A DNA stretch of 64,000 bases from Paenibacillus sp. FSL H8-0548 (GTDB taxonomy: Bacteria; Bacillota; Bacilli; Paenibacillales; Paenibacillaceae): contig NZ_CP152049.1 in NCBI RefSeq assembly GCF_038630985.1, positions 1,941,501 to 2,005,500 on the forward strand, in the 5' to 3' direction. Position numbers and translations under genes: made by a program. Below the pieces are notes generated by a model. That model was given only the letters and a program-made list of their open reading frames with translations. It did no database searches and was not told the origin of the DNA. This document shows, one piece after another, positions 19,962 through 49,097 of this stretch; positions within the stretch are counted from its first letter, which is position 1; the number at the start of each line of letters is the position of its first letter.

Positions 19962-20013
19962 TTGACCTGTTCTTTTTAAAGAACTACAATAGATTTATTG
20001 TCTGTTATAACGC
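19962..20013 (+). promoter_or_regulatory. Sigma-A-like promoter with SinR-type operator, for the slrR-like gene
   Basis: TTGACC (19962-19967) and TACAAT (19985-19990) are separated by 17 bp. The last 16 bp of that spacer are the palindrome GTTCTTTTTAAAGAAC (19969-19984), containing the SinR consensus GTTCTYT, so a bound protein would block polymerase. A second, weaker site (GTCTGTTATAAC at 20000) follows at a 31-bp centre-to-centre step. Same geometry as upstream of the first eps gene. Confidence 0.82.
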
Positions 20014-20078
20014 ATTTCCTCTTTTCATACTAGCGTGAAGATTGACGTTAGGATCTAAACTGACTGAAGGAGAATTTT

Positions 20079-20489
20079 ATGATTGGGGAACGGATTAAGA
20101 GTCTACGGGAAAAAAAGGGCTATTCGATAACGAAGCTTGCCGACCTAGCAGGCGTATCCAAGTCCTACTTAAGCTACATTGAAAGAAATATGCAGAATAA
20201 CCCTTCTCTCCAGGTAATGGCGAAAATAGCGGCTCCATTGGATTCTAACATTGAATACTTGCTCGGAGAAGAGCATTTACCGAAAATTCATGCTGATGAA
20301 ACACTTGATGAGGAATGGCGCTCTATTATTAAAGAAGCAGTGGAAGAGGGGATGAGTAAAGGTGATTTCCAGGCATTAAAGGACTTGATTCGTTCTAATA
20401 TATGGAAGAACGGTCGAGCGAATACAAATGGCTACTCCAGCGATCAAAAGAATTCATCAAATATTATCATTCTACATATCGATAATTGA
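20079..20489 (+). CDS. SinR/SlrR-type transcriptional regulator
   Basis: A 136-residue regulator. The N-terminal HTH (about residues 1-65) reads IKSLREKKGYSITKLADLAGVSKSYLSYIER, very close to SinR/SlrR. A SinI-type interaction helix pair follows (about 82-110; LDEEWRSIIKEAVEEGMSKGDFQALKDLI). The C-terminal about 25 residues are low complexity. ATG 20079 follows GAAGGAGAATTT. It lies immediately upstream of the eps genes, as slrR does in B. subtilis, though here in the same direction, and its promoter carries the SinR-type operator. I read it as a positional SlrR analogue; the true SinR orthologue is at 48428. Confidence 0.88.
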   Translation: MIGERIKSLREKKGYSITKLADLAGVSKSYLSYIERNMQNNPSLQVMAKIAAPLDSNIEYLLGEEHLPKIHADETLDEEWRSIIKEAVEEGMSKGDFQALKDLIRSNIWKNGRANTNGYSSDQKNSSNIIILHIDN

Positions 20490-20517
20490 TGCTGAATGAA
20501 AAAAACGAAAAAGTGTC

Positions 20518-20569
20518 TTGACATGTTCTATATAAAGAACTAATATTGTGTTATTGTTCTTTATAACAA
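20518..20569 (+). promoter_or_regulatory. Sigma-A-like promoter with SinR-type operator, for the first eps block
   Basis: TTGACA (20518-20523) and TAATAT (20541-20546) with a 17-bp spacer whose last 16 bp are GTTCTATATAAAGAAC (20525-20540). A second palindromic site TTGTTCTTTATAACAA (20554-20569) follows with a 31-bp step between the GTTC starts. The layout matches repression by promoter occlusion, as SinR does at eps in B. subtilis. Confidence 0.85.
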
Positions 20570-20589
20570 ACATAGTAAGCAGGTGTGTA

Positions 20590-21339
20590 ATGGAAGGTTC
20601 ACGAGGGGAAGAGCTGCAGACGATACGCAGCGAAAAGGAAAGCAGGATGGTCAAAGAAATAAATCTTAAGGCTTTGTATGTAACGATTCGCAAACGTGTA
20701 TGGATGGTTTTACTGATTACGATATCTTTAACCATTCTCGCAGGCTTGTACAATTCCAGACCTGAAACACCAATGTATTCTTCATCTGCACGAGTGATCA
20801 TTGCAACTACCGCAGATATGATGGGAACGGTAAGAGTACTGTTTCGAGAGCCGATCGTGATGAATGAAGTCATCGAGGCTTTGCAGCTTAATCGATCTGC
20901 TGCACAGCTCAGAAGCCAGTTTAGGGTAGATAGTGTGGATGGCACATTAGTAACAGTCATATCTGTGGTAGATAGCGATTCAAAGCTTGCGGCTGATATC
21001 GTGAACACTGCTGTTGACGCCTATAAAAAGGCGGCAGCCCAAATTCTGGGCATTACGAATATTCAGGTTTTAACAACTGCACAAGAAAATCCTAACTCTA
21101 TTAATGAAAAAAGCAATACTATTGTTTTCGTAGGCTTCATACTAGGACTTATTTTGAGCTTAGCTTTCATATTTCTGTTGGATTCTCTCGATGATTCGAT
21201 CAAATCAGATCGTCAGATTGAGGATGTACTTGGTTTAACGGTGCTTGGCGATGTGTCTCAAATGAAGAAAAAAGATTATGCGAGACATTTAAAGAAACAA
21301 AAGAGCATTTTAGTGCGGGGTGAGACCATTGGTTCATGA
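20590..21339 (+). CDS. epsA: Wzz-type chain-length/tyrosine-kinase modulator (EpsA-like)
   Basis: A 249-residue polysaccharide co-polymerase subunit. Two membrane helices (about residues 36-55 and 178-200) flank an extracellular region, as in Wzz/YwqC/EpsA modulators that control chain length and activate the partner BY-kinase. A C-terminal DDSIKSDRQIEDVLGLTVLGDV motif is typical. Start is ambiguous: ATG 20590 has only AGCAGGTG upstream, whereas ATG 20647 has AAAAGGAA. First gene of the eps block, overlapping the next gene by 11 bp. Confidence 0.88.
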   Translation: MEGSRGEELQTIRSEKESRMVKEINLKALYVTIRKRVWMVLLITISLTILAGLYNSRPETPMYSSSARVIIATTADMMGTVRVLFREPIVMNEVIEALQLNRSAAQLRSQFRVDSVDGTLVTVISVVDSDSKLAADIVNTAVDAYKKAAAQILGITNIQVLTTAQENPNSINEKSNTIVFVGFILGLILSLAFIFLLDSLDDSIKSDRQIEDVLGLTVLGDVSQMKKKDYARHLKKQKSILVRGETIGS

Positions 21340-21994
21340 ACGGAAAAAGGCGTCAAAATCTTACGTGAATAAAAGCTTGCTAGCGTATATTCATCCTCAT
21401 GGTGATATTTCAGAGCAATATCGGACAATTCGCAACAATATTCATTATGCCGCAAATGGCAGCAAGGTCCGCTCATTGCTCGTTACATCGCCCTCTGAGG
21501 GAGAAGGCAAATCGACGACAACCGTTAATCTGGCAGTTTGTATGGCGCAGCGCGGGGATCGTGTACTCATTATCGATGTCAATTTTAGAAATCCAATTAT
21601 AAATAAAATTTTCAATGTACAAACCTCGCCAGGACTGTCGAATATACTTGGCCAGCAGCTTGAAATTCGCGAGGCCATTTATAATACGGAGATCGAAGGT
21701 TTGGATATTTTGCCGAGCGGACAGCGGCTTTATAATTCGACAGAGCTGCTGGATTCACCACTGATGGACGATGTTATGGCATTTGCTTACGAGAAATATG
21801 ATATGGTCCTGCTTGATTGCCCGCAGGTGCTTGGTGTGCCCGACACAAACGCGCTTGCCAGCAAATGCGATGGCGTGCTACTGCTGCTTAAAAGTGGAAA
21901 GACGCAGCAAGAGCATGCTGTAGAAGCAAAACGCACCTTGCTGTTTGCCAAAGCCAATATTTTGGGCGTCATACTTAATAAGAAAAGCGTTTGA
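21329..21994 (+). CDS. epsB: BY-kinase (EpsB-like tyrosine kinase) lacking the C-terminal tyrosine cluster
   Basis: A protein of about 221 residues with Walker A SPSEGEGKSTTTVNLA (about residues 54-69), Walker A' VLIIDVNFRNP and Walker B MVLLDCP, the bacterial tyrosine kinase set. It ends NILGVILNKKSV with no Tyr-rich tail, unlike PtkA and many CpsD proteins, so classic autophosphorylation control may be missing. TTG 21329 is preferred because GGGGTGAG sits about 7 bases upstream; GTG 21320 touches that site. With EpsA it would gate polymer length and export. Confidence 0.88.
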   Translation: MVHERKKASKSYVNKSLLAYIHPHGDISEQYRTIRNNIHYAANGSKVRSLLVTSPSEGEGKSTTTVNLAVCMAQRGDRVLIIDVNFRNPIINKIFNVQTSPGLSNILGQQLEIREAIYNTEIEGLDILPSGQRLYNSTELLDSPLMDDVMAFAYEKYDMVLLDCPQVLGVPDTNALASKCDGVLLLLKSGKTQQEHAVEAKRTLLFAKANILGVILNKKSV

Positions 21995-22021
21995 TGATCA
22001 TAATCGGATAGCGCTTTTTTT
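21983..22021 (+). terminator. Possible weak terminator between epsB and the EAR-like RNA
   Basis: AAAAGCG and CGCTTTT pair around a 22-nt loop and are followed by T residues, overlapping the epsB stop. If real, it is the kind of signal an EAR-type antiterminator would help polymerase pass. Confidence 0.45.
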
Positions 22022-22074
22022 ACGGAATTTTCGTTCTCTATAAAGTACAAACGACGACGGATACAGACGATTCC

Positions 22075-22276
22075 GTTCGGTAATGTCTCCTAACCGTTAT
22101 CAATGGAGGCACTCGGCCATGCTGTGGGTGATCAAAAGCCTTAGACGCGAGTCGTCAGGAGTGTGGTGTGAGGAGGGGTTGAATGCCCTTGATTTTACGT
22201 TGGAAGGTTTCACTATCAGGCTTTGTGGAAAGCCTCATGGTGAAACACTCTAAATGGTGTTTCAGCCACCCACGGA
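22075..22276 (+). ncRNA. EAR-like processive antitermination RNA (eps-associated RNA)
   Basis: The 350-bp gap between the epsB-like and epsC-like genes matches the known place of EAR in B. subtilis eps. The segment folds: GTGGGTG (22124-22130) pairs with CACCCAC (22267-22273), extended by two more pairs. Inside are hairpins AGGCTTT/AAAGCCT (22218-22235) and TGAAACAC/GTGTTTCA (22241-22264). A GACG-CGAGT-CGTC hairpin (22144-22156) has a loop complementary to ACTCG at 22111-22115, i.e. a pseudoknot. No protein gene fits here. The assignment rests on position plus these pairings; I could not match it to the EAR covariance model. Confidence 0.7.
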
Positions 22277-22344
22277 ATGAATTTTCATAAGTTAAAGCTG
22301 GCATTGGTATTTATTTTGATGTTTTTAGGAAAGGGTGACCAGGA

Positions 22345-24171
22345 TTGACGTATCGGCAAAGATTTTCTTTATTAATTTTGATGGATTCTTTTATTGTGCT
22401 AACAGCGATCTTCTTCAGCAGGCTCTTACTAAGCGCTTCGCTAGATGTAGTAACGATACCGATTGTAATCAGCTCCATTACATTATTACTCAGCCATCAT
22501 TTTTTTTCCTTCTATTACAAGCTCTATAAGAAGGCGTGGGAATATGCAAGCGTGGGTGAGCTTATCATCATCACAAAGGCAGTATCCTTCTCTATCTTTG
22601 CTGCTGCAATTATTCAGCAGCTGGTCATGAAGGACGTCTTTTTCCGGCTGCTTGCGGTAACGTGGATGATTCATATGCTGCTTATTGGCGGCTCCAGACT
22701 TTGCTGGAGAATATTTAGAGGCCGCTACAGCAAGCATGATGGTCAGCAAAAAAGAACTTTAATCGTAGGGGCCGGCTCAGCGGGCACGATGCTTGCGCGG
22801 CAGCTGCTTAACAACAGCGATACGGAGCTGCTGCCAATCGCTTTTATAGACGACGATATCCATAAGCATAATCTAGATATTATGGGGATACCGGTCAGCG
22901 GAGGCGTGTCTAGTATTGCAAAACTAGCGCTTGATAAGGATATACATAATATTGTCATCGCGATTCCATCGCTTAGCAAGAAGCAGCTGAATACGATTTT
23001 TGGCGAATGCGCGAAAACGAAGGCGAAAACGCAAATTATTCCGATGCTTGAGGATTTGGCTACGGGGAGAGTTTCAGTGAGTCAATTCCGTGACGTTCAG
23101 GTAGAGGATTTGCTAGGCCGCGAGCCCGTTGAGCTGGATATCGAGAGTATCTCAGGCTATGTCACTCAGAAGGTCGTTATGGTAACCGGTGCAGGCGGCT
23201 CGATTGGTTCAGAGGTTTGCCGGCAGGTTTCTCGTTTTTTACCGGAGAAGCTTATTTTGCTTGGTCATGGGGAGAACAGCATCTATTCCATCGAGATGGA
23301 GCTGAAGGAGCTGTATGGCCATACTCAAATCGAGTTCATAACCGAAATAGCCGACTTGCAGGATGCGAACAAAATGATGGCGGTTATGCTGGCCCATCGT
23401 CCTCAGGTGGTCTATCATGCGGCTGCTCATAAGCATGTTCCCTTAATGGAGCGAAATCCAGAGGAAGCGTTCAAAAACAATGTGCTGGGCACGATGAATG
23501 CAGCCAAAGCGGCAAGCCAAGCGCGTGTCGACACATTCGTAATGATCTCAACGGATAAGGCGGTTAATCCGACAAGTGTGATGGGATCGACTAAACGTAT
23601 TGCAGAAATGGTTATCCAACATATGGACCGAATAAGCAATACGAAGTTTGTTGCGGTTCGTTTCGGCAATGTTCTAGGCAGCAGGGGAAGCGTTATTCCG
23701 CTGTTCAAAAAACAAATTGAGAAGGGCGGCCCCGTAACGGTAACACATCCCGACATGGTTCGTTATTTTATGACGATACCAGAGGCTTCGAGGCTCGTGA
23801 TTCAAGCTGGCGCACTCGCCAAGGGCGGCGAAATATTCGTGCTCGATATGGGCGATCCTGTCAAAATCACAGATCTTGCGCAAAATGTGATTCGAATGTC
23901 AGGCTATACGGTCGAGGAAATTGGCATTCAGTACACGGGTATCCGGCCAGGAGAGAAGCTGTTTGAGGAAATGCTCAAGGCGAATGAAATGGATGAGCAG
24001 CAGGTTTATCCGAAAATTTATATTGGAAAGTCCTTTGAGATTTATTTTGAACAAATTGAAGAAATTATCGCGCTCCACGGTGGAATGAGCAAAGCAGAAC
24101 TGCGAATTAAGCTGCTGGATTTGGCGAATAACGTAGTGGAAGTTCCGGATTTCGTATCTGTAACAGGCTAA
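22345..24171 (+). CDS. epsC: EpsC-like membrane-bound UDP-sugar 4,6-dehydratase
   Basis: A 608-residue protein. Four N-terminal membrane helices (about residues 8-115) precede a first Rossmann domain (VGAGSAGTMLARQLL, about 140-154). The catalytic SDR domain starts at VTGAGGSIGSEVCRQ (about 276-290), then ISTDKAVNPTSVMGSTKR and RFGNVLGSRGSVIPLF. This is the CapD/PglF/EpsC layout that makes UDP-4-keto-6-deoxy-sugars, here presumably feeding EpsN and EpsM. TTG 22345 has AAAGGGTGA upstream. In B. subtilis EpsC, EpsN and EpsM make UDP-N,N'-diacetylbacillosamine. Confidence 0.93.
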   Translation: MTYRQRFSLLILMDSFIVLTAIFFSRLLLSASLDVVTIPIVISSITLLLSHHFFSFYYKLYKKAWEYASVGELIIITKAVSFSIFAAAIIQQLVMKDVFFRLLAVTWMIHMLLIGGSRLCWRIFRGRYSKHDGQQKRTLIVGAGSAGTMLARQLLNNSDTELLPIAFIDDDIHKHNLDIMGIPVSGGVSSIAKLALDKDIHNIVIAIPSLSKKQLNTIFGECAKTKAKTQIIPMLEDLATGRVSVSQFRDVQVEDLLGREPVELDIESISGYVTQKVVMVTGAGGSIGSEVCRQVSRFLPEKLILLGHGENSIYSIEMELKELYGHTQIEFITEIADLQDANKMMAVMLAHRPQVVYHAAAHKHVPLMERNPEEAFKNNVLGTMNAAKAASQARVDTFVMISTDKAVNPTSVMGSTKRIAEMVIQHMDRISNTKFVAVRFGNVLGSRGSVIPLFKKQIEKGGPVTVTHPDMVRYFMTIPEASRLVIQAGALAKGGEIFVLDMGDPVKITDLAQNVIRMSGYTVEEIGIQYTGIRPGEKLFEEMLKANEMDEQQVYPKIYIGKSFEIYFEQIEEIIALHGGMSKAELRIKLLDLANNVVEVPDFVSVTG

Positions 24172-24195
24172 ATTGATGAAGGAGTTGCTAACACG

Positions 24196-25077
24196 ATGAA
24201 AGTTAGAAAAGCGATTATACCTGCCGCAGGACTCGGCACCAGATTTCTCCCTGCAACAAAAGCTATGCCGAAGGAAATGCTTCCCATTGTAGATAAGCCA
24301 ACGATTCAGTATATCGTGGAGGAAGCGATAGAGTCTGGTATTGAGGATATTATTATTGTCACGGGTAAAGGAAAACGGGCGATTGAGGATCATTTTGATA
24401 ATTCACTGGAGCTTGAGCAAATTTTGACAGCTAAGCATAAATTTGAATTGCTGAGCGAGGTTCGCAAATCGGCTGATATGGTTGATATTCATTATATTCG
24501 CCAGAAGGAGCCGAAAGGTCTTGGACATGCGATATGGTGTGCTCGCAAGTTCATAGGGAACGAGCCCTTCGCTGTACTGCTGGGTGATGATATCATCTCA
24601 GCCGAGAAGCCGTGCATCAGACAGATGATTGAAAAATATGAGGAATATCATACCTCTATCATAGGTGTGCAGCGCGTGGCGGATGAGGCAGTTTCCCGGT
24701 ATGGGATCGTCGATGGCGCGCCAATGGAGGAATCATTCCACCGCGTTCGCCATTTGGTCGAAAAGCCCTCGAGAGAAGAGGCACCCTCCAATATGGCGAT
24801 TATGGGACGTTATATTTTGAATCCGGCTATTTTCGATATTTTGGGCAAGCAGATGCCGGGAGCAGGCGGAGAAATCCAATTGACGGACGCTATTGCTGCC
24901 TTGAATTTATCGGAAGCGGTATATGCCTATGAATTCGAGGGCAAGCGTTATGACGTAGGCGAGAAGATGGGCTTTATACAGACGACGGTTGAATTTGCGC
25001 TTCAGCGTGAGGATCTGCGCTATGAGCTGTTGGATTATTTATCACGAACGGTTGAAAGAGAGGCTGCTAGAAAATAA
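24196..25077 (+). CDS. gtaB: UTP-glucose-1-phosphate uridylyltransferase
   Basis: A 293-residue nucleotidyltransferase with [31 protein letters not shown] at the N-terminus (UTP binding and catalysis), [23 protein letters not shown] and the [19 protein letters not shown] segment. It makes UDP-glucose from glucose-1-phosphate and UTP, the precursor for galE here and for glucosylation. The core B. subtilis eps operon has no gtaB, so its insertion between epsC and epsD is a local addition. GAAGGAGTTG precedes ATG 24196. Confidence 0.95.
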
Positions 25078-25100
25078 TGCTAGTTTAGGATGGTGTACTC

Positions 25101-26267
25101 ATGCCTAATAAAATATTATTTTGTGCAACAGTGGATTATCATTTTAAGGCATTTCATCTGCCGATGATGGAATGGTTCAAGCAGCAGGGCTGGGAGGTTC
25201 ATGTCGCCGCTAAGGGCGAACTGGACCTCCCTTTTGTTGACAAGAAGTTTAATTTGCCTATCGAGCGCTCTCCGATTCATTTGCAAAATATTAAAGCGTA
25301 TCAAGAGCTGAAGCAAATTATTAAGCAGCAGAAATACAGCATTATTCATTGTCATACGCCAATGGGCGGCGTGCTTGCGAGGCTGGCCGCGCAATCGGCA
25401 CGCAAAACAGGGACAAAGGTTATTTATACGGCGCATGGCTTTCATTTTTGCAAGGGAGCATCACTTCTGAATTGGTCGGTTTATTACCCAATAGAGAAGA
25501 TGCTGTCAAGCCTAACCGATTGCCTCATTACGATAAATGAAGAGGATTATGAGCTTGCAGTGTCAAGGGGCTTCAAAGCAAAGGAAATTGCTCATGTGCA
25601 TGGGGTAGGCGTAAATGCCATTCGATTTAAGCCGGTACAGAAAATTGAAAAATGGCGGCTGCGGCAGGAGTATGAATACAGAACGGATGATATCCTCCTC
25701 TTCTATGCTGCTGAATTCAATAAAAACAAAAATCATGAGCTGCTGCTGCATGCTCTGGCCTTAATCAAGGATCAGGTGCCCAGTACGAAGCTGCTGCTTG
25801 CAGGAAAGGGGCCGCTGCTGGAATCCACCCAGCTGCTGGCGAGCAGGCTTGGGCTAGATCACATGGTTCATTTTCTTGGGTTTCGGAATGACATTGATCG
25901 TCTGCTGCCGATGAGTGATATTGCCGTGGCATCGAGTTTGCGTGAAGGGCTGCCAGTCAATATTATGGAGGCGATGTCTTGTGGACTTCCGATTGTTGCA
26001 ACGCAGAATAGAGGGCACTCGGAGCTTATAGTCGAGGGTGAGAATGGCTTCGTCTTGGCACCAAGCGATACTGATTTATTTGCTATCCGCATGAAGCAAT
26101 TGATTGAATCCGCTGAACTTAGGCAGCAAATGGGAATGAGCAGTATGCAGCGAATGAAGATGTACAACTCATTGCAGGTTGAACAAGAGCTTGGGGGGAT
26201 TTATAAGTCGTATATGCTGGAGGAGCAAAATGAAGCCGAAAGTCAGTATCGTCGTGCCTATATATAA
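25101..26267 (+). CDS. epsD: Glycosyltransferase family 4 (EpsD-like)
   Basis: A 388-residue GT-B glycosyltransferase. The N-terminal acceptor domain contains HCHTPMGGVLARLAA, TAHGFHFCKGASLLNW and the PIEK segment shared with EpsD. The C-terminal domain has LLLAGKGPLLE, FRNDIDRLLPMSDIAVASSLREGLPVNIMEAMSCGLPIVATQNRGHSELI, with the nucleotide-sugar EX7E-type Glu pair. It is expected to add a sugar to the lipid-linked repeat unit in the cytoplasm. It overlaps the next GT gene by 38 bp. Confidence 0.88.
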   Translation: MPNKILFCATVDYHFKAFHLPMMEWFKQQGWEVHVAAKGELDLPFVDKKFNLPIERSPIHLQNIKAYQELKQIIKQQKYSIIHCHTPMGGVLARLAAQSARKTGTKVIYTAHGFHFCKGASLLNWSVYYPIEKMLSSLTDCLITINEEDYELAVSRGFKAKEIAHVHGVGVNAIRFKPVQKIEKWRLRQEYEYRTDDILLFYAAEFNKNKNHELLLHALALIKDQVPSTKLLLAGKGPLLESTQLLASRLGLDHMVHFLGFRNDIDRLLPMSDIAVASSLREGLPVNIMEAMSCGLPIVATQNRGHSELIVEGENGFVLAPSDTDLFAIRMKQLIESAELRQQMGMSSMQRMKMYNSLQVEQELGGIYKSYMLEEQNEAESQYRRAYI

Positions 26268-27417
26268 TATGGAAGATTATTTGGACAGATGCCTTAGGAG
26301 CCTGCTGAGACAAACGCTTACGGCCATCGAAATTATAGCGGTGAATGATGGCTCGCAGGATGCTAGCCTGAGGCTTCTTCAGCAGTATGCGGAGCATGAC
26401 TCGCGAATCGTTATTATAAATAAAGCAAACGGCGGTGTTTCTGCAGCCAGAAATGATGGCGTCAAGGCAGCGAGAGGGCAGTACATTGGCTTTGTAGATC
26501 CTGACGACTGGGTTGACGATCGTATGTATGAGGAACTGTACCATGCAGCGATTCAAGATCATATCGACATAGCGATGTGCACGTATATAAGGGAATTTGA
26601 ATCCCATGCGAAGGAAAAGCATTTCGATATGCCGCACAAGCAAATCTATCGCGGCGAAGAGGTGCAGGCAAAGCTGCTGCGGCGGCTAGTAGGGCCCTTG
26701 AAAGAAGAACTCGCTAGTCCCGAGTTTCTAGATGCTTGGGGAACGGTTTGGTCTAAGATTTATCGTGCTGAATGGTTAAAGGACCATGGCTTTGAGTTTA
26801 TGGATCTAAGTGTGATCGGAAGCAATGAGGATACGCTGTTCAATATTCATGCTTTCCATTATGCCGAATCCTTTATCTTTCTGAATCGTCCATTCTATCA
26901 TTATTGGCGTGCGAATACAGAATCGATTACGTCTACCTATAATGCGAAACTGCCGGAGAAATTCGATAGGCTGTATACAGCTATGCAATCCTTTATTGTA
27001 GAAAAGCAGCTTGCCGATGATTACAAAACAGCCTTTAACAATCGGATTTGTATGAATATTATCGGGCTAGGAATCAACATGATGAGCGAGGGCAAAGCCT
27101 CATCTGCAGGAAAGAAGCTGAAGGCTGTTCACGCTCTGCTGCATAGCAATCGAGTTAGCGAATCCTTTAGACAGTTTGACACGAGCTACTGTCCTTTGAT
27201 TTGGAAGGTGTTTTTTGTTAGTGCAAAACATAAATTTACGTTTGCGGTTTACTTTATGCTAATCGTCATAAATGGGCTGCGCGCGAAGAGCTTAAGGAGG
27301 ACAAAAGTTGAATCCAGTTCGAATTTTGCAAGTGGTAACCATTATGAATCGCGGCGGCTTAGAAACGATGCTGATGAATTATTATCGTCAAATGGATCGA
27401 AGCCAAATTCAGTTTGA
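26230..27417 (+). CDS. Glycosyltransferase family 2 (EpsJ/EpsH-like), with long read-through tail
   Basis: A 395-residue GT-A enzyme: VSIVVPIYNMEDYLDRCLRSLLRQ at the start, VNDGSQD, GGVSAARNDGVKAARGQYIGFVDPDDWV with the metal-binding D-x-D type motif, and WSKIYRAEWL. ATG 26230 follows GGAGGAGCAA; an in-frame upstream start lacks support. The last about 36 residues (from KVESSSNF) lie over the start of epsF (110-bp overlap), are low complexity and look like reading past a lost stop. It resembles EpsJ more than the flagellar-clutch enzyme EpsE. Acceptor is unknown. Confidence 0.87.
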   Translation: MKPKVSIVVPIYNMEDYLDRCLRSLLRQTLTAIEIIAVNDGSQDASLRLLQQYAEHDSRIVIINKANGGVSAARNDGVKAARGQYIGFVDPDDWVDDRMYEELYHAAIQDHIDIAMCTYIREFESHAKEKHFDMPHKQIYRGEEVQAKLLRRLVGPLKEELASPEFLDAWGTVWSKIYRAEWLKDHGFEFMDLSVIGSNEDTLFNIHAFHYAESFIFLNRPFYHYWRANTESITSTYNAKLPEKFDRLYTAMQSFIVEKQLADDYKTAFNNRICMNIIGLGINMMSEGKASSAGKKLKAVHALLHSNRVSESFRQFDTSYCPLIWKVFFVSAKHKFTFAVYFMLIVINGLRAKSLRRTKVESSSNFASGNHYESRRLRNDADELLSSNGSKPNSV

Positions 27418-28429: not shown

Positions 28430-28444
28430 GAGGAGTGAAGGTAA

Positions 28445-37484: not shown

Positions 37485-37488
37485 AGCG

Positions 37489-39850: not shown

Positions 39851-39860
39851 GTGGACGAAA

Positions 39861-41042: not shown

Positions 41043-41065
41043 TGGTGTAAAGAGGAGCGAATAAG

Positions 41066-42250: not shown

Positions 42251-42300
42251 ATATGCTGCTTAATATTCTCATTCCATATAGGAAAGTTGGGTAGGACATA

Positions 42301-42858
42301 GTGAAGAGGATAATATCATTTGCAAAAGCAAGAATACGTAAATGGATATTGGAGGAACTATGGCTTGATGATTATGTGAAGCTCGGAATGAAAATTGGTG
42401 GAAATTGCTCAATACAGCCTGGAGTCATCTTTGATTATTCGCATTGTTGGCTGATTAGCATAGGCAATAATGTTACTATAGCGCCACATGTATACATATT
42501 GGCACATGATGCAAGCACTAAATTAATAACTGGATATACTAAAATTGGCTGCGTTACGATAGAAGACGATGTTTTTATTGGTGCAAGAGCAGTCATCATG
42601 CCGGGAGTAATATTAGGCAAGGGATCAATAATAGCAGCAGGTAGTGTTGTTACTAAATCGGTAACAGAAGGATGTATTGTAGCGGGGAATCCTGCCAAAG
42701 TGATTAGTACTGTTGAGGATTATATCGCGAAATCAAGAAAATTATTAGAAGTGATTCCTAAGTACGATGAAAGCTATACCTTAAGAGGGGAAATATCTAA
42801 AGTACAGCGTGAAAGCATGTCCCAAGCCTTGCGAGGAACAAATGGATTTATCAGATAG
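42301..42858 (+). CDS. Hexapeptide-repeat acyltransferase (WbbJ/LbH type)
   Basis: A 185-residue acetyltransferase. Its hexapeptide rungs run from [43 protein letters not shown] to [41 protein letters not shown] and end VAGNPAKVI, the usual closing. The His in ILAHDAS is the probable catalytic residue. GTG 42301 is the best start, although only a weak site lies upstream. The gene is AT-rich relative to its neighbours, hinting at separate origin. It probably O-acetylates the polymer. Confidence 0.88.
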
Positions 42859-42867
42859 GAGTATCGT

Positions 42868-44448
42868 ATGAGAGTAAAAAGTTCATTATTAAATATTTCT
42901 GTCGGCCTAGGCAATCAGCTCGTAATTACGATATTAAGCTTCGTATCAAGGACTGTTTTCATTAATAGTTTAGGAGTCGAATACTTAGGTATTAATGGTC
43001 TATTCACAAGCATACTCGCCATGCTTACCTTGGCAGAGGCTGGCATAGGTTCGAGTATTATCTATAATCTATATAAGCCAGTCGCCAATAATGATAGGCC
43101 GAAAATATTAGCTCTAATGAGCTTGTACAAAAAAGCCTATCTTATTATAGCTGGCATTGTGCTGCTGCTTGGTTTAGCGGTAATGCCCTTTTTGGATCTA
43201 TTTATAAAGGAAACAAGTGTTGAAAATATTAGTATTATCTATTTATTGTTTTTGATTAATACAGCAGTGCCTTATTTATTTGTTTACAAGCATTCCTTTT
43301 TGAATGTAAATCAGAAAAACTACATCATCACAGCCGTATTTTCTGTATCAGCTATCATTTCTACCGGTATGAAAATTGCTATTTTGTATTTCACAAAAAA
43401 CTATATCTTATATTTAGCAATAGAGAGTGCTCTTTCCATTATTACCTCCATAATATTAGTGCTTATTGTAAATAAGCTGTATCCGTTCTTGAAGGAGAAG
43501 GTGCAGAGCAAGCTGGACCCGGAGACAAAGGCTAATTTCATCAAAAATATGAAGGCAATTATCCTTCAAAATATCGGTAATTATTTTATATTTGGAGTGG
43601 ACAGTATACTTATTTCTTCCTTTGTAAGTATTGCTGCTGTAGGCTTGTATTCTAATTATAAAATGCTAATCGATATTTGCCGAACCTTGCTTAATCAAAT
43701 ATTTTCAAATATGTATCATAGCCTTGGCAATTTAATCGCTAAGGAGAGTGCGGCAGCCGTATACCGAATTTTTAAGGTTACGTATTTGCTTAATTTTTGG
43801 TTATATTCACTATTGTCCATTGGACTTTATTTATTGATTGATCCGCTAATCGAGATTTGGATCGGGCAAGAGTATCAAATGACGAATATCGTGGTGCTTC
43901 TGCTCATCCTATCATTTTATGAACGAGGAATGAGAAACTCATTAACCGCAGTGAAATCGACGGCCGGTATTTTTCATGAGGATCGATTTGCTCCGTTGTT
44001 TCAAGCTGTAGTTAATCTCGCGTTATCTCTAGTTCTTGTTCAATATATAGGTATAGCTGGAATATTTATAGGTACATTAGTGAGCGCTCTGCTCGTCCCT
44101 TTCTGGTATACCCCATTGCTTGTATACCGTAAGGTATTCAATCAACCAGTAAGACATTATTATTATCACTACGCTCTTTATACTACCTTAGGAATTGCTG
44201 CTGGTGGAATCGTGGGTTATGTTATTCATTTTCTGCCGTCTTCTACTATTGCGTGGCTGTTCCTTAAAGGGATAATCTGTCTCTTTATCGTGAATGTTTT
44301 TTATATTATCGTGTTTCATCGGACCGAACAATTCAAATATTTGTATAATATTGTTCAAGCACTATTAAGCAAGCTGATGATGAAGAGCACAAGTCTTTGG
44401 AATCAGATTAAGCGGCGTAATAGACTAGGCACAGAGTCCAATAAGTAA
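42868..44448 (+). CDS. Oligosaccharide flippase, Wzx/PST type (EpsK-like role)
   Basis: A 526-residue polytopic protein with about 12-14 hydrophobic helices. It starts MRVKSSLLNISVGLGNQLVITILSFVSRTVFINSLGVEYLGINGLFTSILAMLTLAEAGIGSSIIYNLYKP, a pattern seen in many Firmicutes repeat-unit flippases. It moves the lipid-linked unit across the membrane for EpsG. It lies 9 bp after the acetyltransferase gene and is similarly AT-rich. The first eps block has no flippase, so this gene, in the second block, is needed to complete the pathway (inference). Confidence 0.88.
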   Translation: MRVKSSLLNISVGLGNQLVITILSFVSRTVFINSLGVEYLGINGLFTSILAMLTLAEAGIGSSIIYNLYKPVANNDRPKILALMSLYKKAYLIIAGIVLLLGLAVMPFLDLFIKETSVENISIIYLLFLINTAVPYLFVYKHSFLNVNQKNYIITAVFSVSAIISTGMKIAILYFTKNYILYLAIESALSIITSIILVLIVNKLYPFLKEKVQSKLDPETKANFIKNMKAIILQNIGNYFIFGVDSILISSFVSIAAVGLYSNYKMLIDICRTLLNQIFSNMYHSLGNLIAKESAAAVYRIFKVTYLLNFWLYSLLSIGLYLLIDPLIEIWIGQEYQMTNIVVLLLILSFYERGMRNSLTAVKSTAGIFHEDRFAPLFQAVVNLALSLVLVQYIGIAGIFIGTLVSALLVPFWYTPLLVYRKVFNQPVRHYYYHYALYTTLGIAAGGIVGYVIHFLPSSTIAWLFLKGIICLFIVNVFYIIVFHRTEQFKYLYNIVQALLSKLMMKSTSLWNQIKRRNRLGTESNK

Positions 44449-44498
44449 CCTTTTACTGACAAGCTGCATACGTTGATAGTAAAAGGAAGGTGAAGAAA

Positions 44499-46805
44499 AT
44501 GAATGAACAAACCTCTTACCGCATTGAATTAGATCGTTTTAATATTAGTAACATAGGCTTGAATGCAGTTGAGGCCACGAAAGGGATCAATAATGCCATT
44601 AGTTGGGCCAAGTCTGCGGGTTATCTCCATGTCATTCTACCAAAAGGCAGCTATTCTGTTAGTCTTGATCCAAGCTCTCTCGTCGCGATTCAAATGCAGA
44701 GCGGCATCCATTTTGAGCTTGAGGATGGCTGTACGATTAAGTTAGTAGGCACTTCCTCACCAAGTTATTCTATCATTGAAATGAGAGGGCTTACTAACTC
44801 GAAAATATCAGGCGGCAGGCTGGTAGGTGATAAGCAGGAGCATATTTACGAGATAGCTGTTAAATTTGTTAGAGGCGGAGTGAATGCTGACGGAACTCTG
44901 AACAATGATCCTAACTGGATTCGCAGTGAGGTTGTTGATCGTTATGCAAACCCGGGACTGCTAGCTTATTTTAGACTATGGAGTATACCTGGGGTGAATG
45001 CTGCCGGCTATCATTTCTATCAATATAAAGATACGATTTCCAAACAAACATTAACTGGTTCGCGTACGGATGGCCTTTTTGCACCTGCGAGCTCAACGGG
45101 AAGAGGCTGGTTTCTTAATGAAGAGAAGGACTTCAGTAAAAACAACAAAATGATTTTTACGATCCCACTTGCTGCTCCACTAACAGATAGTCAAATTGCT
45201 AGTATTCAAGCGAAGGTGGATAACTCATTTTATACACATGAGAGCGGTTATGGAATCGGATCATTTGGCTCCAATCATATTGAAATCTTCAACATTGAAA
45301 TTTCAGATTGTATCGGAGATGGGATTATTACTGGATACGAAAATTATCTGATTGATCCTGCGGCCTATACCCAGGAGCAAATGGGGCAGCATATCCTTAT
45401 TCACGATTGCCATATTCATCATTGCAGAAGACAAGGCATTTCCATTTGTGCATCCAATGATACTCATGTCTACCGCAATAAGATTCATCATATCGGCTAT
45501 GCGGAGGATGGAGTGACCACAAATTTTCGAAACGGCACCCCTCCTATGTTTGGCATTGATATTGAATCTATGTACATGGAAACCAATATTCCATACAAGA
45601 CAGCGGACCGCCCGAATGGAATAGAGCTTAACTATCGCATTTATATTAAAGATAATCATATTTATAGCAATGCTAGAGGACATTTGGTCAATGCCGACGG
45701 GTCTAACGTTTCTATCGATGGCAATACCTTCGAAGGGACAAATGTCGGAGGTGTGAGCTCATATGCAAACTTTCCGAATGTGAAGTTTACGAACAATACG
45801 TTTAAAGGATGCGAGCTGTGGGTGCAAGGCGATAATTTTGTAAACGGTGCTGTTATTCAAAATGGAAATTTGAGACTTCTTGATGTGAGAGGGGCCGTTG
45901 TTCAAAATATTCAAATCAAAGATGGCCTATTTTATGGCTCAAGCATTTATGGATATTTCGGTACGCCTGTAGTGAATACGTCCACGAGTACCTTTACGTT
46001 TAAAACCGCGCACGGCATGGGCAACGGAGCAAAAGTATCATTTGAGCAGTGGATAGGGAAGGTGCCAACCGGCATAAGTGTTGATAAGCTGTATTACACC
46101 ATAAATGTTACATCGGTAAGCTTCCAGGTTTCTGAAACTCTTGGAGGGGCGCCGGTAGCCATTAAGGATGCAGGAGTAGCGGGATTTAATATCGGAAGAT
46201 ATAATTATGGTAGATGCTATATTTACAACGTATCGGTAGAGAGAGATTGGCGCCCAGATAATGCTTCAACACCAAACTTTAATATTATAGCAGCAGGTGC
46301 CGTTATAAAAAATGTAACCGTCAAAAACTACGATGCAGCTGTAGTCGTACCTCAGAATTATGCTGGTAGACCGAATTTAGTAGAGGGAATGACCGTCATT
46401 GAAGGTTCTGTGCGTTTTGAGGGCAGCCATGTTAGTGACAGTGAGTTTATTCGTGCGAAAACGCCGCTCCTTGGAAACAGTGATATACAGCTAGGCTCTA
46501 ACAATGCTGAGTATACGAGGCAGGTTACTATGCGAAATAGTTTGCTTCAAAGTATAGGGCTGATGATGGAAGGCAACTCGCTTGTTACGGGCTCTACCTT
46601 TGTGAATGCTTCAATTGGGAAAGCAGACAATGACAATAAAGCGATAATTGCGCAATCCTATATGGACAATACAAAATTGAATTTCCACTGGCTTCGGAAA
46701 AACAATTCCGTAACCGTTGCAAAATCTGTATTTAAGGGCGCAGCAATTACGGGTACTGCACCGTTTGTCCGATTAATTGATAATACAGACTTAGGAAATA
46801 CCTGA
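44499..46805 (+). CDS. Right-handed parallel beta-helix protein with phage-tail-like insert (putative polysaccharide-degrading enzyme)
   Basis: A 768-residue protein, no signal peptide. The N-terminal half (about residues 20-450) is a pectate-lyase-like beta-helix: TKGINNAISWAKSAGYLHVILPKGSYS, then many short Asn- and Gly-rich rungs such as ILIHDCHIHHCRRQGISICASNDTHVYRNKIHHIGY. Residues about 495-560 form a module with FKTAHGMGNGAKVSFEQW and KLYYTINVTSVSFQVSETLGGAPV, like repeats in phage tail fibres. A further beta-helix follows. ATG 44499 follows AAGGAAGG. It might cleave the EPS or act as a scaffold. Without a signal peptide, secretion would need another route. Confidence 0.72.
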   Translation: MNEQTSYRIELDRFNISNIGLNAVEATKGINNAISWAKSAGYLHVILPKGSYSVSLDPSSLVAIQMQSGIHFELEDGCTIKLVGTSSPSYSIIEMRGLTNSKISGGRLVGDKQEHIYEIAVKFVRGGVNADGTLNNDPNWIRSEVVDRYANPGLLAYFRLWSIPGVNAAGYHFYQYKDTISKQTLTGSRTDGLFAPASSTGRGWFLNEEKDFSKNNKMIFTIPLAAPLTDSQIASIQAKVDNSFYTHESGYGIGSFGSNHIEIFNIEISDCIGDGIITGYENYLIDPAAYTQEQMGQHILIHDCHIHHCRRQGISICASNDTHVYRNKIHHIGYAEDGVTTNFRNGTPPMFGIDIESMYMETNIPYKTADRPNGIELNYRIYIKDNHIYSNARGHLVNADGSNVSIDGNTFEGTNVGGVSSYANFPNVKFTNNTFKGCELWVQGDNFVNGAVIQNGNLRLLDVRGAVVQNIQIKDGLFYGSSIYGYFGTPVVNTSTSTFTFKTAHGMGNGAKVSFEQWIGKVPTGISVDKLYYTINVTSVSFQVSETLGGAPVAIKDAGVAGFNIGRYNYGRCYIYNVSVERDWRPDNASTPNFNIIAAGAVIKNVTVKNYDAAVVVPQNYAGRPNLVEGMTVIEGSVRFEGSHVSDSEFIRAKTPLLGNSDIQLGSNNAEYTRQVTMRNSLLQSIGLMMEGNSLVTGSTFVNASIGKADNDNKAIIAQSYMDNTKLNFHWLRKNNSVTVAKSVFKGAAITGTAPFVRLIDNTDLGNT

Positions 46806-46816
46806 TATTGGGAATT

Positions 46817-46852
46817 AATCCCTGGAGTTTTTCTGCTGCAGGGATTTTATTT
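46817..46852 (+). terminator. Rho-independent terminator closing the second EPS block
   Basis: An 8-bp stem AATCCCTG/CAGGGATT with a 14-nt loop, followed by T-rich sequence. It separates the beta-helix gene from galE. Confidence 0.7.
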
Positions 46853-46917
46853 GAATAGATTGTGTACATAAGGAATAATTTGTTCTATATCATAATTACG
46901 GAAGAGGGGTTAGTGAA

Positions 46918-47973
46918 ATGGCAATTTTAATTACAGGCGGCGCCGGTTATATTGGCAGTCATACATGCATTGAGCTTCTTGAAGCTGGGTATGAGGTAGT
47001 GGTCGTGGACAATTTGAGCAATAGCAGCCATATCTCATTAAATAGAGTTGCGGAAATTACGAACAAAAACTTTACCTTTTACAAAATGGATCTTATGGAC
47101 CGTGGTGGACTGGAGCTCGTGTTCTCTAGACATTCAATTGATGCCGTTATTCATTTTGCTGGCCTTAAGGCGGTTGGCGAATCGGTTCAATTGCCGCTGT
47201 CCTATTATTATACCAATATAACGAGCACCTTAATTTTGTGCGAGGTCATGAATAAATATAATGTACATAAGCTTGTATTCAGCTCTTCAGCGACGGTTTA
47301 CGGGCGTCCCGAGCTATCCCCGATAGCGGAAGATTCTCCGCTTGGCGCGACGAATCCCTATGGAAGAACAAAGCTCATGCTTGAGCAAATTTTACAGGAT
47401 TTAGCCGCATCGAGCGAGCAATGGGGAATTTCTATTTTGCGTTATTTCAATCCGATCGGCGCACATAAAAGCGGAAAAATTGGCGAGAATCCTAACGGAA
47501 TTCCCAACAACCTGATGCCTTATATTTCGCAGGTTGCGGTTGGCAAGCTGGAGAAGGTGAACGTATTTGGCAGCGACTATGAAACAGTTGATGGAACGGG
47601 TGTAAGAGATTATATTCATGTCGTGGATCTTGCAAAGGGCCATCTGAGAGCGTTGGAGAAGGTTATGGGCAAGTCAGGCGTAGATATTTATAATCTTGGC
47701 ACAGGACAGGGCTATAGCGTATTAGAGATGATAGCAGGCTTCGAGAGAGTAGCAGGGAGAAGTATTCCTTATCAAATCGCTGCTCGCAGACCCGGTGACA
47801 TTGCCGTTTGTTTTGCGGATACTCAGAAGGCGAATGCTGAGCTGAATTGGACCGCGGAACGTGGAATTGAGGAAATGTGCGAGGATTCCTGGAGATGGCA
47901 ATCATCCAATCCAAACGGCTACGAGGAAAACTCGTCTTCCGTACGTGAAATTGCAGCAGCCTCTTGGGAGTGA
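46918..47973 (+). CDS. galE: UDP-glucose 4-epimerase
   Basis: A 351-residue SDR-family epimerase that interconverts UDP-glucose and UDP-galactose. ILITGGAGYIGSHTCIELLEAGYEVVVVDNLSNS (NAD-binding), VIHFAGLKAVGES, FSSSATVYG, NPYGRTKLMLEQ with the catalytic YxxxK, and the C-terminal GDIAVCFADTQKANAEL are all present. With GtaB upstream it gives UDP-galactose for the EPS. AAGAGGGGTTAGTGAA precedes ATG 46918. A SinR-like half-site GTTCTATAT at 46882 is weak. Confidence 0.95.
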   Translation: MAILITGGAGYIGSHTCIELLEAGYEVVVVDNLSNSSHISLNRVAEITNKNFTFYKMDLMDRGGLELVFSRHSIDAVIHFAGLKAVGESVQLPLSYYYTNITSTLILCEVMNKYNVHKLVFSSSATVYGRPELSPIAEDSPLGATNPYGRTKLMLEQILQDLAASSEQWGISILRYFNPIGAHKSGKIGENPNGIPNNLMPYISQVAVGKLEKVNVFGSDYETVDGTGVRDYIHVVDLAKGHLRALEKVMGKSGVDIYNLGTGQGYSVLEMIAGFERVAGRSIPYQIAARRPGDIAVCFADTQKANAELNWTAERGIEEMCEDSWRWQSSNPNGYEENSSSVREIAAASWE

Positions 47974-48055: not shown

Positions 48056-48132
48056 TTCGACAAAAAATATAATTATTTCCTATTTTTATGAGACATGAAG
48101 TGACAGCATGCGCAATTGGACTCATATATAAT
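48056..48132 (+). promoter_or_regulatory. Possible Spo0A box and promoter upstream of the sinI-like gene
   Basis: TTCGACA at 48056-48062 is a perfect inverse of the 0A box TGTCGAA. A perfect TATAAT lies at 48127-48132 with only a poor -35 (CAGCAT at 48104), as expected for an activated promoter. In B. subtilis sinI is switched on by Spo0A-P. A 7-bp match alone occurs by chance several times in 64 kb, so this rests on context. Confidence 0.5.
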
Positions 48133-48171
48133 ACAGATATAAGCGAATGACAAGCATAGGGAGACGTTGAA

Positions 48172-48264
48172 ATGCGTTTATTATCTGGGCACCTTAAACG
48201 CGTGGAGTCAGTGGTGCAACCGTCCCAAAATGAATGGGGGACAAGTGGAAATGGTACTTGTTAA
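48172..48264 (+). CDS. 30-codon leader ORF overlapping the sinI-like start (possible)
   Basis: ATG 48172 has the best site in this stretch (GGGAG at 48159-48163). It opens a frame of 30 codons (starting MRLLSGHLKR) that ends at 48264, 14 bases into the sinI-like gene. It may couple translation to sinI. I see no known protein. Chance is quite possible. Confidence 0.35.
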   Translation: MRLLSGHLKRVESVVQPSQNEWGTSGNGTC

Positions 48265-48412
48265 ATCGGAAGATAACCAAGACTTGGATATGGAGTGGGT
48301 TGCATTGATCCAAAATGCACGTTCTTTGGGGTTTAGCAAAGATGATGTGCGAAAGGTTCTACTATGCCTTACTGAGAGCAAAACCAATGATATCCAAGAA
48401 ACAGCCGTTTAA
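48251..48412 (+). CDS. sinI: SinI-like antirepressor
   Basis: A protein of about 53 residues. LDMEWVALIQNARSLGFSKDDVRKVLL matches the SinI helix pair (LDQEWVELMVEAKEANISPEEIRKYLL in B. subtilis), which binds SinR and removes it from DNA. ATG 48251 gives a SinI-like length, with GGGGG ten bases upstream. A longer frame open from TTG 48167 has extra N-terminal residues unlike SinI. The gene converges with the SinR orthologue and shares a bidirectional hairpin with it, while in B. subtilis sinI and sinR are in tandem. It is the likely switch for the palindromic operators. Confidence 0.8.
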   Translation: MVLVKSEDNQDLDMEWVALIQNARSLGFSKDDVRKVLLCLTESKTNDIQETAV

Positions 48413-48418
48413 AAAGTA

Positions 48419-48442
48419 AAAAAAGCGCTATTCGCGCTTTAT
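48419..48442. terminator. Bidirectional hairpin terminator between sinI-like and sinR genes
   Basis: A 7-bp stem AAAGCGC/GCGCTTT with a 5-nt loop lies between A-rich and T-rich flanks, so it can work on both strands. It overlaps the last codons of sinR. Confidence 0.75.
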
Positions 48443-48760
48443 TTTCCATTTGTTGAATTCTAGAAACTCTTTAAACTGATCCTTGCTTACGCCGGAGGCC
48501 ATGGCTTCTTTAACTAAGTCAGCCCATTCATTGTCCAATTGATCAGGATTGCGATCAGTTTTATCGTCATTATTGAGAAAATCCTCAACTGTTACGTTTA
48601 AGACGATGCCTACCTTTTCGAGAAATTGAATCGAAGGGTTCTGCTGTAGCCCTCGCTCAATGGAGCTTAGATATGACTTTGCAACACCTGCCCGTTGGGA
48701 TAACTCCGTTAGGGATAGGCCTTTTCTCTTGCGCAGCATCTGAATGCGTTCTCCGACCAT
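48428..48760 (-). CDS. sinR: SinR orthologue, biofilm master repressor
   Basis: A 110-residue protein nearly superposable on SinR. The HTH (residues 1-66) has MVGERIQMLRKRKGLSLTELSQRAGVAKSYLSSIERGLQQNPSIQFLEKVG. The C-terminal SinI-type domain has LDNEWADLVKEAMASGVSKDQFKEFLEFNKWK. SinR binds GTTCTYT-containing sites and represses eps and tapA; SinI sequesters it. On the minus strand CGGAGGAGTATGTT precedes ATG 48760, with a TATAAT at 48801-48806. Compared with the relative at 20079 this one is closer to SinR. Confidence 0.93.
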   Translation of the reverse strand: MVGERIQMLRKRKGLSLTELSQRAGVAKSYLSSIERGLQQNPSIQFLEKVGIVLNVTVEDFLNNDDKTDRNPDQLDNEWADLVKEAMASGVSKDQFKEFLEFNKWKIKRE

Positions 48761-48800
48761 AACATACTCCTCCGTTATCGCTTCGTTGTAGACTTTCTCT

Positions 48801-48849
48801 ATTATAACGAAAATTTCTTAATTACGAAAGCTTGTGAGCTATAACGAAC
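48801..48849 (-). promoter_or_regulatory. sinR promoter region with two GTTCGTTATA-type half-sites
   Basis: On the minus strand a perfect TATAAT (48801-48806) has a poor -35. Half-sites reading TTTTCGTTATA (48803-48813) and GTTCGTTATA (48840-48849) lie 37 bp apart, similar to half of the 16-bp operator, so self-regulation is plausible. Confidence 0.5.
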
Positions 48850-48873
48850 TAAGATTTTTAATTTAGACAGAAG

Positions 48874-48910
48874 GATCTGCTTATTCGTTGTAATAAGTGG
48901 ATCTTTTTTT
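48874..48910 (+). terminator. Rho-independent terminator reading plus strand, ahead of the lasso promoter
   Basis: A 12-bp stem (GATCTGCTTATT with AATAAGTGGATC, two G-U pairs), 6-nt loop and seven T. No plus-strand gene directly precedes it because sinR is on the minus strand. It could stop read-through antisense to sinR. The 410-bp stretch 48761-49170 holds only regulatory signals. Confidence 0.8.
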
Positions 48911-49044
48911 GCTGGAAATGAATTTTATTTTTATGGTGTAAAGCAAATGGCCAGCAGATTATAATCATAGGTTAAAAAACGCTGGAGTGTTTTTAATAAA
49001 GAACAAAAAACCTGTAATTTTTGGAATAATTCACTAAAATGTGA

Positions 49045-49097
49045 TTGACAAAGGTGGTTTTCAAGTGTAATATTCAAATATGTTCTTTATAAAGAAC
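49045..49097 (+). promoter_or_regulatory. Sigma-A-like promoter with SinR-type operator for the lasso cluster
   Basis: TTGACA (49045-49050) and TAATAT (49068-49073) with a 17-bp spacer. The perfect palindrome GTTCTTTATAAAGAAC (49082-49097) begins 8 nt after the -10, over the expected transcription start. Position and spacing equal those at 33880. No second site at 31 bp was found here. Confidence 0.85.

Follow-up and report, generated by a model that had tools for sequence, protein, structure and literature searches.

Organization of the Locus and Its Operators

The 64,000-nucleotide stretch of Paenibacillus sp. FSL H8-0548 analysed here (hereafter the window: contig NZ_CP152049.1 of assembly GCF_038630985.1, positions 1,941,501 to 2,005,500) contains a SlrR-like regulator gene, two blocks of exopolysaccharide (EPS) genes, a convergent sinI–sinR pair and a lasso-peptide cluster, and 16-bp palindromes of the form GTTC-N8-GAAC, which stand at promoters of these genes, correspond to the inverted repeat of 16 bp that SinR of Bacillus subtilis recognizes. 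As far as sequence comparison can tell, it is very likely that these palindromes are SinR operators that co-repress the slrR-like gene, the EPS blocks and the lasso cluster, with relief through SinI under the influence of cyclic di-GMP (c-di-GMP) and Spo0A. Coordinates are those of the window, and features lie on its forward strand unless stated otherwise.

The palindromes were found at 19969, 20525, 33917 and 49082, as the initial annotation had it, and a fifth match, at 9585, lies inside a listed open reading frame (ORF) of 402 aa; these 5 matches compare with a shuffle mean of 0.5, and 0 of 100 shuffles reach 5. The four promoter sites show two fixed geometries, which had been read from the sequence and were recovered by a pattern scan. 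In geometry 1, a T followed by the palindrome fills the spacer between the −35 and −10 elements, and this is the arrangement at the promoter of the slrR-like gene (19962–19990; TTGACC, T and operator 19969–19984, TACAAT) and at that of EPS block 1, in front of a Wzz/epsA-like gene (20518–20546; TTGACA, T and operator 20525–20540, TAATAT). In geometry 2, TTGACA, 17 nt, a −10 element and 8 nt are followed by the palindrome, as is seen at the promoter of EPS block 2, which begins with an NTP transferase gene, NTP5 (33880–33932; TTGACA-N17-TAATCT-N8, operator 33917–33932), and at the promoter of the lasso cluster (49045–49097; TTGACA-N17-TAATAT-N8, operator 49082–49097, a perfect palindrome). When whole genomes were scanned with at most one mismatch, each scan having a reversed-pattern control, each geometry occurred exactly twice in the 7.35-Mb genome, with all four occurrences in the window, while the reversed controls gave 1 for geometry 1 and 0 for geometry 2. 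GTTCTYT half-sites are indeed arranged as inverted repeats at the target promoters, with arms and half-sites varying locally, for instance GTTCGTT at 33917.

A second site at a 31-bp step had also been described for three of the promoters; this stood for EPS block 1, where a good operator, GTTCTTTATAACAAAC, lies at 20556–20571, but only a weak site, GTCTGTTATAACGCAT, is present at the slrR-like promoter (20000–20015) and only a half-site, GTTCGTTATTGGCTAA, at the NTP5 promoter (33948–33963). Two further sites, each with one arm mismatch, are additions to the initial annotation, as is the riboswitch at 48153–48234 described below: an operator-like site upstream of PglF/epsC (GTTCTCTATAAAGTAC, 22033–22048) and a site in the lasso promoter region (GTTTTTAATAAAGAAC, 48989–49004), 93 bp ahead of the main one. 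Elsewhere, intergenic near-consensus sites were noted at 1179941, 2424320, 2393430, 4030532 and 5862014 of G000:C1, and the genes behind them encode an AMP-binding enzyme, family-4 and family-2 glycosyltransferases, a beta-helix protein and two ORFs without a Pfam match.

Genes were called by Pfam and NCBIfam profile scans of the window proteins. The sinR orthologue (48428–48760, reverse strand; HTH_3 and SinI domains) aligns with B. subtilis SinR (1b0n/3zkc) over residues 1–107 with an E value of 1.2e-36; its residues 25–36 are identical to those of B. subtilis SinR, and residues 25–37 are kept in 23 of 25 loci. Both it and a SinI-like partner are encoded at 48.2–48.8 kb, where they had been placed before. 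The SinR-family paralogue (20079–20489; HTH_3 and, below the cut-off, a SinI domain) has Tyr33 in its recognition helix, GVSKSYLSYIERN, which is found in 24 of 26 loci; with 86.1 bits it misses the threshold of 250 of the SlrR equivalog NF046032, and the label "SlrR-like" is one of position and architecture only. It has been reported that B. subtilis SinR binds TTTGTTCTCTAAAGAGAACTTA, an inverted repeat of the same spacing, with a dissociation constant of 300 nM, and that the inverted repeat is bound about 10 times better than tandem or single sites (PMC3163267). Similarly, the SinR-1 site of kinB is an inverted pair across 16 nt through which kinB is repressed (PMC5733473).

Conservation of the Operators in Related Genomes

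The comparison covered 60 genomes, 37 of the genus (its own included) and 23 from the same order, and SinR orthologues (E 1e-30 or better) are encoded in 30 of them. Under the same mismatch limit, geometry 2 gives 43 matches in 27 genomes against 1 in the reversed control; 25 stand before NTP5, 15 before the lasso cyclase gene and 2 before lasso B1, and 1 is a stray with one mismatch (G058). Geometry 1 gives 62 matches in 29 genomes (reversed control 15), usually as two sites separated by about 555 bp, one ahead of the slrR-like gene and one ahead of Wzz, and at the slrR-like gene the palindrome is exact in 24 genomes. All 29 genomes with geometry 1 and 26 of the 27 with geometry 2 are SinR-positive, the exception being G058; geometry 2 is missing in the SinR-positive genomes G011, G037, G052 and G059. 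In relatives, GTTC recurs at exactly +31 at 24 of 54 geometry-1 sites and at +30 to +32 at 22 of 23 NTP5-type sites, and at +31 at only 2 of the 17 other geometry-2 sites. The site upstream of epsC, followed in 28 genomes, is exact in 8, has one arm mismatch in 19 and is absent in G041; in one group of relatives it lies about 50–65 bp from the gene instead of about 260–320 bp.

At the lasso clusters, a site was counted when the exact palindrome lay at most 450 bp upstream of a full-length cyclase homologue, measured from the start of the match, which for G005:C24, G035:C42 and G045:C3 is about 20 codons inside the gene. Among 52 such homologues in the 60 genomes, the site is present for 28 of 41 in SinR-positive genomes versus 0 of 11 in SinR-negative ones; counted by genome with a lasso cyclase, the figures are 27 of 28 versus 0 of 8 (Fisher 3e-7, kinship ignored). 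The 13 siteless cyclases of SinR-positive genomes belong to G003, G005, G007, G011, G020, G023, G028 and G035, all of which, except G011, own another cyclase gene with sites. Second clusters are mostly siteless, one exception being G034:C22. The second lasso clusters at G003:C26, G005:C46, G007:C4, G011:C44 and G020:C5 contain a tandem pair of cyclase genes and are preceded by no operator. The site-bearing cluster shares a contig with EPS genes in 25 genomes, and in G018 and G028 it is next to sinIR, on a contig other than that of the EPS genes. Beside sinIR the lasso cassette occurs in either orientation, and the inverted cassettes keep their operators at lasC; in G004 and G028, lasB1-B2 are split off and an operator precedes lasB1.

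A wider set was formed from the best 80 named cyclase loci among the matches listed, partly the same records as the relatives (e.g. L209–L211); the nearest of these to the window, among the matches listed, are those of P. luteus R-3, Paenibacillus sp. PL91 and FSL A5-0031. The exact site lies upstream in 56 of the 80 loci, against 0 of 80 in a coding control and a shuffle mean of 0.28 (maximum 2), and the loci with sites span Paenibacillus and genera of the Bacillaceae, such as Cytobacillus, Neobacillus, Mesobacillus and Virgibacillus. In a scan of the 80 loci with all 256 four-base arms and spacers of 0–20, TTCT-N6-AGAA came top with 59 loci and GTTC-N8-GAAC second with 56; the former is the same palindrome in a shorter register, the next four motifs are also registers of it, and the first unrelated motif scores 17. 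In L228, L243, L248 and L276 the sites are present and no homologue of the window's EPS genes is listed within 8 kb. The earlier claim that SinR regulates the EPS genes and the lasso cluster is hence supported by the cross-genome comparison, both by 56 of 80 loci and by 27 of 28 versus 0 of 8 genomes.

The sinI Leader

Upstream of sinI, the window carries TTCGACA (48056–48062), a Spo0A-box-like sequence; it is present in 23 of 23 sinI loci, 92–101 nt ahead of an aptamer. This aptamer, a c-di-GMP-II riboswitch (RF01786), occupies 48153–48234 with 70.7 bits against a gathering threshold of 53.5, and was likewise found before sinI in all 23 loci of the genus that were scanned, namely the window and 22 relatives (62 to 77.6 bits), G011 and G035 being outside this count. 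It is in the sense orientation, and a SinI-like ORF follows in 22 of the 23 loci by motif and in the 23rd (L044) by tblastn. In the window, sinI probably starts at ATG 48251 and encodes 53 aa (48251–48412), while the listed ORF begins at 48167, inside the aptamer; its first 28 codons (48167–48250) look protein-conserved because they lie in or just after the riboswitch. The SinI domain scores 35.6 bits against a Pfam cut-off of 31.4, and the NCBIfam equivalog for Bacillus SinI is missed, with 27.7 of 80.

A Shine–Dalgarno-like GGGGGA (48236–48241), the likely ribosome site, can pair with the aptamer segment GUCCC (48222–48226). Across the loci it lies within a few bases 3′ of the aptamer, the CCC of whose closing stem (P1) is an alternative partner, and there is covariation: GGGGGAC comes after all 8 of the aptamers that read GUCC at this place and after 1 of the 15 others. 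On folding, the median unpaired probability of the ribosome site is 0.20 when the leader folds freely versus 0.67 when P1 is forced, and the site becomes freer with P1 forced in 20 of 23 leaders. Since folding frees the ribosome site when the closing stem is forced, the model predicts that the sinI riboswitch is a translational ON switch.

Other lineages carry related arrangements. A class I aptamer precedes the sinI-like gene of G037, class I-GGC aptamers those of L309, L310 and L311, and a class II aptamer that of L297, at about 300 nt. These are the 5 with an aptamer before a sinI-like gene among 19 sinR regions from outside the genus set, L162 included, of which 13 gave no aptamer above threshold. 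The remaining one, L301, has a c-di-GMP-II aptamer (5489–5573) downstream of the gene for a SinR paralogue, and no sinI was recognised behind it. Near sinR–sinI, cobalamin riboswitches were seen in two Paenibacillus genomes (L306:3248–3462 and L314:5161–5377).

It has been reported that in Paenibacillus sp. FSL P4 a c-di-GMP-I riboswitch adjoins a SinR-like gene, and it was called "antisense-acting" (PMC9943018, 2023). Both cases thus place a c-di-GMP riboswitch beside a sinR homologue in Paenibacillus, but there it was read as antisense to that homologue, and sinI is mentioned 0 times in the accessible text of that article, whereas in the loci described here the aptamer is sense-oriented before a small sinI gene; the riboswitch of that report may actually be a leader whose sinI gene went unnoticed. 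In the titles, abstract openings and passages of the openly licensed papers among the matches listed, no description was found of a c-di-GMP riboswitch on sinI joined to a Spo0A input.

The Lasso Cluster and the EPS Blocks

The lasso cluster comprises genes for a cyclase (C protein; 49171–51111; lass_lactam_cya E 2.9e-116, 389.6 bits, under the cut-off of 525), a 47-aa precursor peptide with a C-terminal Ser (51127–51270), an HPr-kinase-like tailoring kinase resembling PadeK (51355–52287), a PqqD-type B1 protein (52291–52599; lasso_PqqD_Bac above cut-off), a B2 leader peptidase (52615–53073; lasso_biosyn_B2 above cut-off) and an ATP-binding cassette exporter, D (53094–54899). The paeninodin-type set of A, B1, B2, C, D and HPr-kinase-like kinase is therefore complete, and the precursor ends in Ser in the window and in 28 of 28 site-bearing loci of the 60-genome comparison. 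The predicted product is a paeninodin-type lasso peptide. Its core reads ASTTGGPFTDEAY...; the feature looked for was an AGPG-like core with an acidic ring residue at position 7–9, and the core of the window's group, AST-x-x-GP-x-TDEAY, would have no acidic residue at ring position 7–9 under a paeninodin-like leader cut.

The cluster shares its gene set, the C-terminal Ser and the NTP transferase family with the paeninodin-type clusters (Paenibacillus dendritiformis) and pseudomycoidin, PsmK and PsmN having been described (PMC9266682). It differs from these in that its NTP transferase gene stands apart, at the head of EPS block 2, in that its core is unlike the AGPG..PDAVQPDP type of many relatives, and in its putative SinR operators.

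EPS block 1 (20590–33110) encodes Wzz, a BY-kinase, PglF/epsC, GalU, glycosyltransferases, EpsG, a sugar transferase and an aminotransferase. The start of Wzz was taken as ATG 20590, the listed ORF beginning at GTG 20548, and an epsC RNA element (RF01735; 22078–22189; 108.8 bits, gathering threshold 42) follows the 22033 site before epsC. At the head of EPS block 2, NTP5 (33969–35165) belongs to NTP_transf_5 (PF14907) and is a homologue of the NTP transferases of lasso clusters; glycosyltransferases, a pyruvyl transferase, GH88, Wzx, a beta-helix protein and GalE follow (35221–47973). NTP5 homologues lie within 8 kb of 62 of the 80 named cyclases, commonly between B2 and D. The closest copies (65% or more) occur in 24 genomes, always heading EPS block 2, and these genomes have no NTP5 copy inside the EPS-linked lasso cluster. 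In a midpoint-rooted tree from a short search, in which the label "in lasso cluster" was assigned by exclusion and not row by row, the 26 copies from block 2 fall into a single group (support 80) that sits within the remaining copies. The NTP5 of block 2 would thus probably be an enzyme of lasso tailoring that has been displaced; PsmN is known to add hexoses, directly or indirectly, to the phosphorylated Ser of pseudomycoidin (PMC9266682). Six genomes have an NTP5 homologue and no window-like cyclase, 4 of them with the homologue beside lasK-B1-B2-D and 2 beside Wzz/GalU/sugar transferase genes. Clusters of the order lasK-B1-B2-NTP5-D were seen in L290, L291, L292 and L294, in whose genomes no window-like cyclase was found, and in G017 a weak, partial NTP5 homologue lies beside a lasK-like gene and Wzz/GalU.

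Proposed Circuit and Alternative Explanations

From these features we infer the following circuit. SinR (48428–48760) would bind and hold down the slrR-like gene and EPS block 1, in which epsC would have an additional operator ahead of it, as well as the NTP5-headed EPS block 2 and the paeninodin-type lasso cluster. At two promoters the operator would act from within the −35/−10 spacer, which it fills; at the remaining pair, 8 nt separate it from the −10 element, so that it would cover the expected transcription start. SinI, made from the convergent gene, would remove SinR, and its predicted inputs are the Spo0A box at the promoter and the c-di-GMP-II riboswitch in the leader, where bound c-di-GMP would free the ribosome site. 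Spo0A~P and c-di-GMP would then raise SinI and so remove SinR, with the consequence that matrix polysaccharide and lasso peptide would switch on together; slime and peptide probably do turn on together. We lean slightly towards the fuller proposal that c-di-GMP, through the sinI riboswitch, and Spo0A~P switch on EPS and lasso peptide as one SinR programme, in which a c-di-GMP input at sinI would have been built repeatedly (with class II aptamers in the genus and G052, a class I aptamer in G037 and class I-GGC aptamers in three Bacillaceae) and in which the lasso peptide would be a dedicated product of the matrix phase, to which the kinase might add phosphate and the block-2 NTP transferase sugars.

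Several observations weigh against this interpretation. The loose motif is not enriched genome-wide: with 3 mismatches it occurs at 54 places versus 81 in the reversed control, and the degenerate motif with 1 mismatch gives 73 and 81 on the two strands versus 98 and 94. Wide occurrence of the motif without promoters had been named beforehand as a finding that would speak against SinR control; the loose motif does occur in this way, whereas the two promoter geometries do not. The signal resides in the best matches and the promoter geometry, and because the loose motif is common by chance the case rests on geometry and conservation. In the wider set, 24 of the 80 loci lack the exact site; 10 of these have a near-consensus site, and in 9 others the cyclase begins less than 150 bp behind an upstream ORF, a gap that is also seen in 4 of the 56 loci with sites, while 5 have neither a near-consensus site nor a close upstream gene. 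Of 50 genomes examined from that set, 48 encode SinR, namely all 26 with the site and 22 of the 24 without it, and its presence separates little there because it is nearly universal; moreover, the co-occurrence figures for SinR and lasso sites take no account of phylogeny. Between paired lasso operators there is no 10.5-bp signal (28 spacings; Rayleigh p 0.56), for which reason DNA looping is unsupported. Forcing the closing stem fails to free the ribosome site in 3 of 23 sinI leaders. SinR-bearing relatives mostly encode at least one close paralogue, and SinR can also act positively, as at kinB (PMC5733473).

Since such paralogues are common, the binder could be one of them, and the operators might be read mainly by the SlrR-like protein (20079) or by a SinR–SlrR complex rather than by SinR alone. 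The paralogue has a like fold and a recognition helix that is mostly identical, its gene adjoins EPS block 1 and is itself preceded by this operator in its promoter, and B. subtilis SlrR is known to bind and redirect SinR (PMC3163267); however, the palindrome is the SinR consensus, and residue 33 is Tyr in the paralogue but Ser in SinR, a position that has been singled out, with Ser in SinR and Lys in SlrR, for a possible effect on DNA choice (PMC3163267). We regard this explanation as unlikely. Another transcription factor with the same half-site might own the operators, with SinR merely co-occurring, and regulators of the XRE family are indeed numerous in each genome; yet the exact 16-bp SinR inverted repeat stands before eps genes, and the site is absent in 8 of 8 lasso-bearing genomes without SinR, which makes this a very improbable account. 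In B. subtilis the eps genes are known SinR targets.

The 49082 palindrome stands between sinR and lasC, and exact or near sites do occur upstream of sinR in some cases, so it could be imagined as an autoregulatory element of the divergent sinR that lies before the lasso cluster by chance. It forms, however, an exact geometry-2 promoter facing lasC; in the inverted clusters of G003, G007, G020, G022 and G026, lasC lies kilobases from sinR and still has sites, while no site in the 250 bp ahead of sinR reaches the threshold used; and many loci carry the site at lasC with no sinR within 8 kb. This candidate was rejected as scarcely credible, because inverted clusters keep the site at lasC, and the lasso-promoter palindrome is not merely a sinR element, being kept where the cluster is inverted or split. 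It is possible, although doubtful, that NTP5 and EPS block 2 are ordinary polysaccharide genes and that the lasso cluster is a chance neighbour which gained the EPS regulator: NTP5 sits among glycosyltransferases, and in L289 and L293, where it lies by Wzz/GalU/sugar transferase genes, a range of about 9 kb around it yielded no lasso gene. Against this, an NTP5 homologue accompanies most of the named cyclases, the 26 EPS-block copies form one nested group, it is the NTP5 and lasso promoters that show geometry 2, and linkage of lasso clusters to polysaccharide loci has already been published (PMC13381572). Repression of both EPS blocks and the lasso cluster by SinR itself is thus the reading that we prefer.

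Relation to Known Systems and Significance

As in the SinR–SinI–SlrR switch of B. subtilis, the locus has a SinR orthologue, SinI, putative inverted-repeat operators, eps and slrR-like genes as predicted targets and a Spo0A-box-like sequence at sinI. Unlike it, the predicted regulon adds the lasso cluster and the NTP transferase, and sinI, which here runs convergently to sinR, has a predicted c-di-GMP riboswitch in its leader; B. subtilis sinI is not known to have either feature.

The initial annotation stated that no lasso cluster under SinR control had been described, and in the titles and abstract openings of the openly licensed papers among the matches listed no description of such control was found; the association with polysaccharide genes and the joint rise, on the other hand, are already published. 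It has been reported that paeninodin-like clusters are linked to capsular polysaccharide loci of Bacilli (PMC13381572, May 2026), and that lasso, lpp and an eps gene of P. alginolyticus rise together in stationary phase (PMC13381572). The lasso/LPP clusters of that report resemble the present one in the linkage of a paeninodin-like cluster to polysaccharide genes; they differ in that SinR is named 0 times in its main text, where a role in biofilms is put forward as an idea awaiting a test. The putative regulatory link between SinR and lasso clusters is, on comparative evidence, well supported.

The operator at lasC, conserved in Paenibacillus and many Bacillaceae, offers a direct handle on the role of paeninodin-type lasso peptides. 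SinR control might also explain, speculatively, why such lasso products are poorly detected in ordinary culture. The sinI riboswitch, if true, would join Spo0A and c-di-GMP signalling at one small antirepressor.

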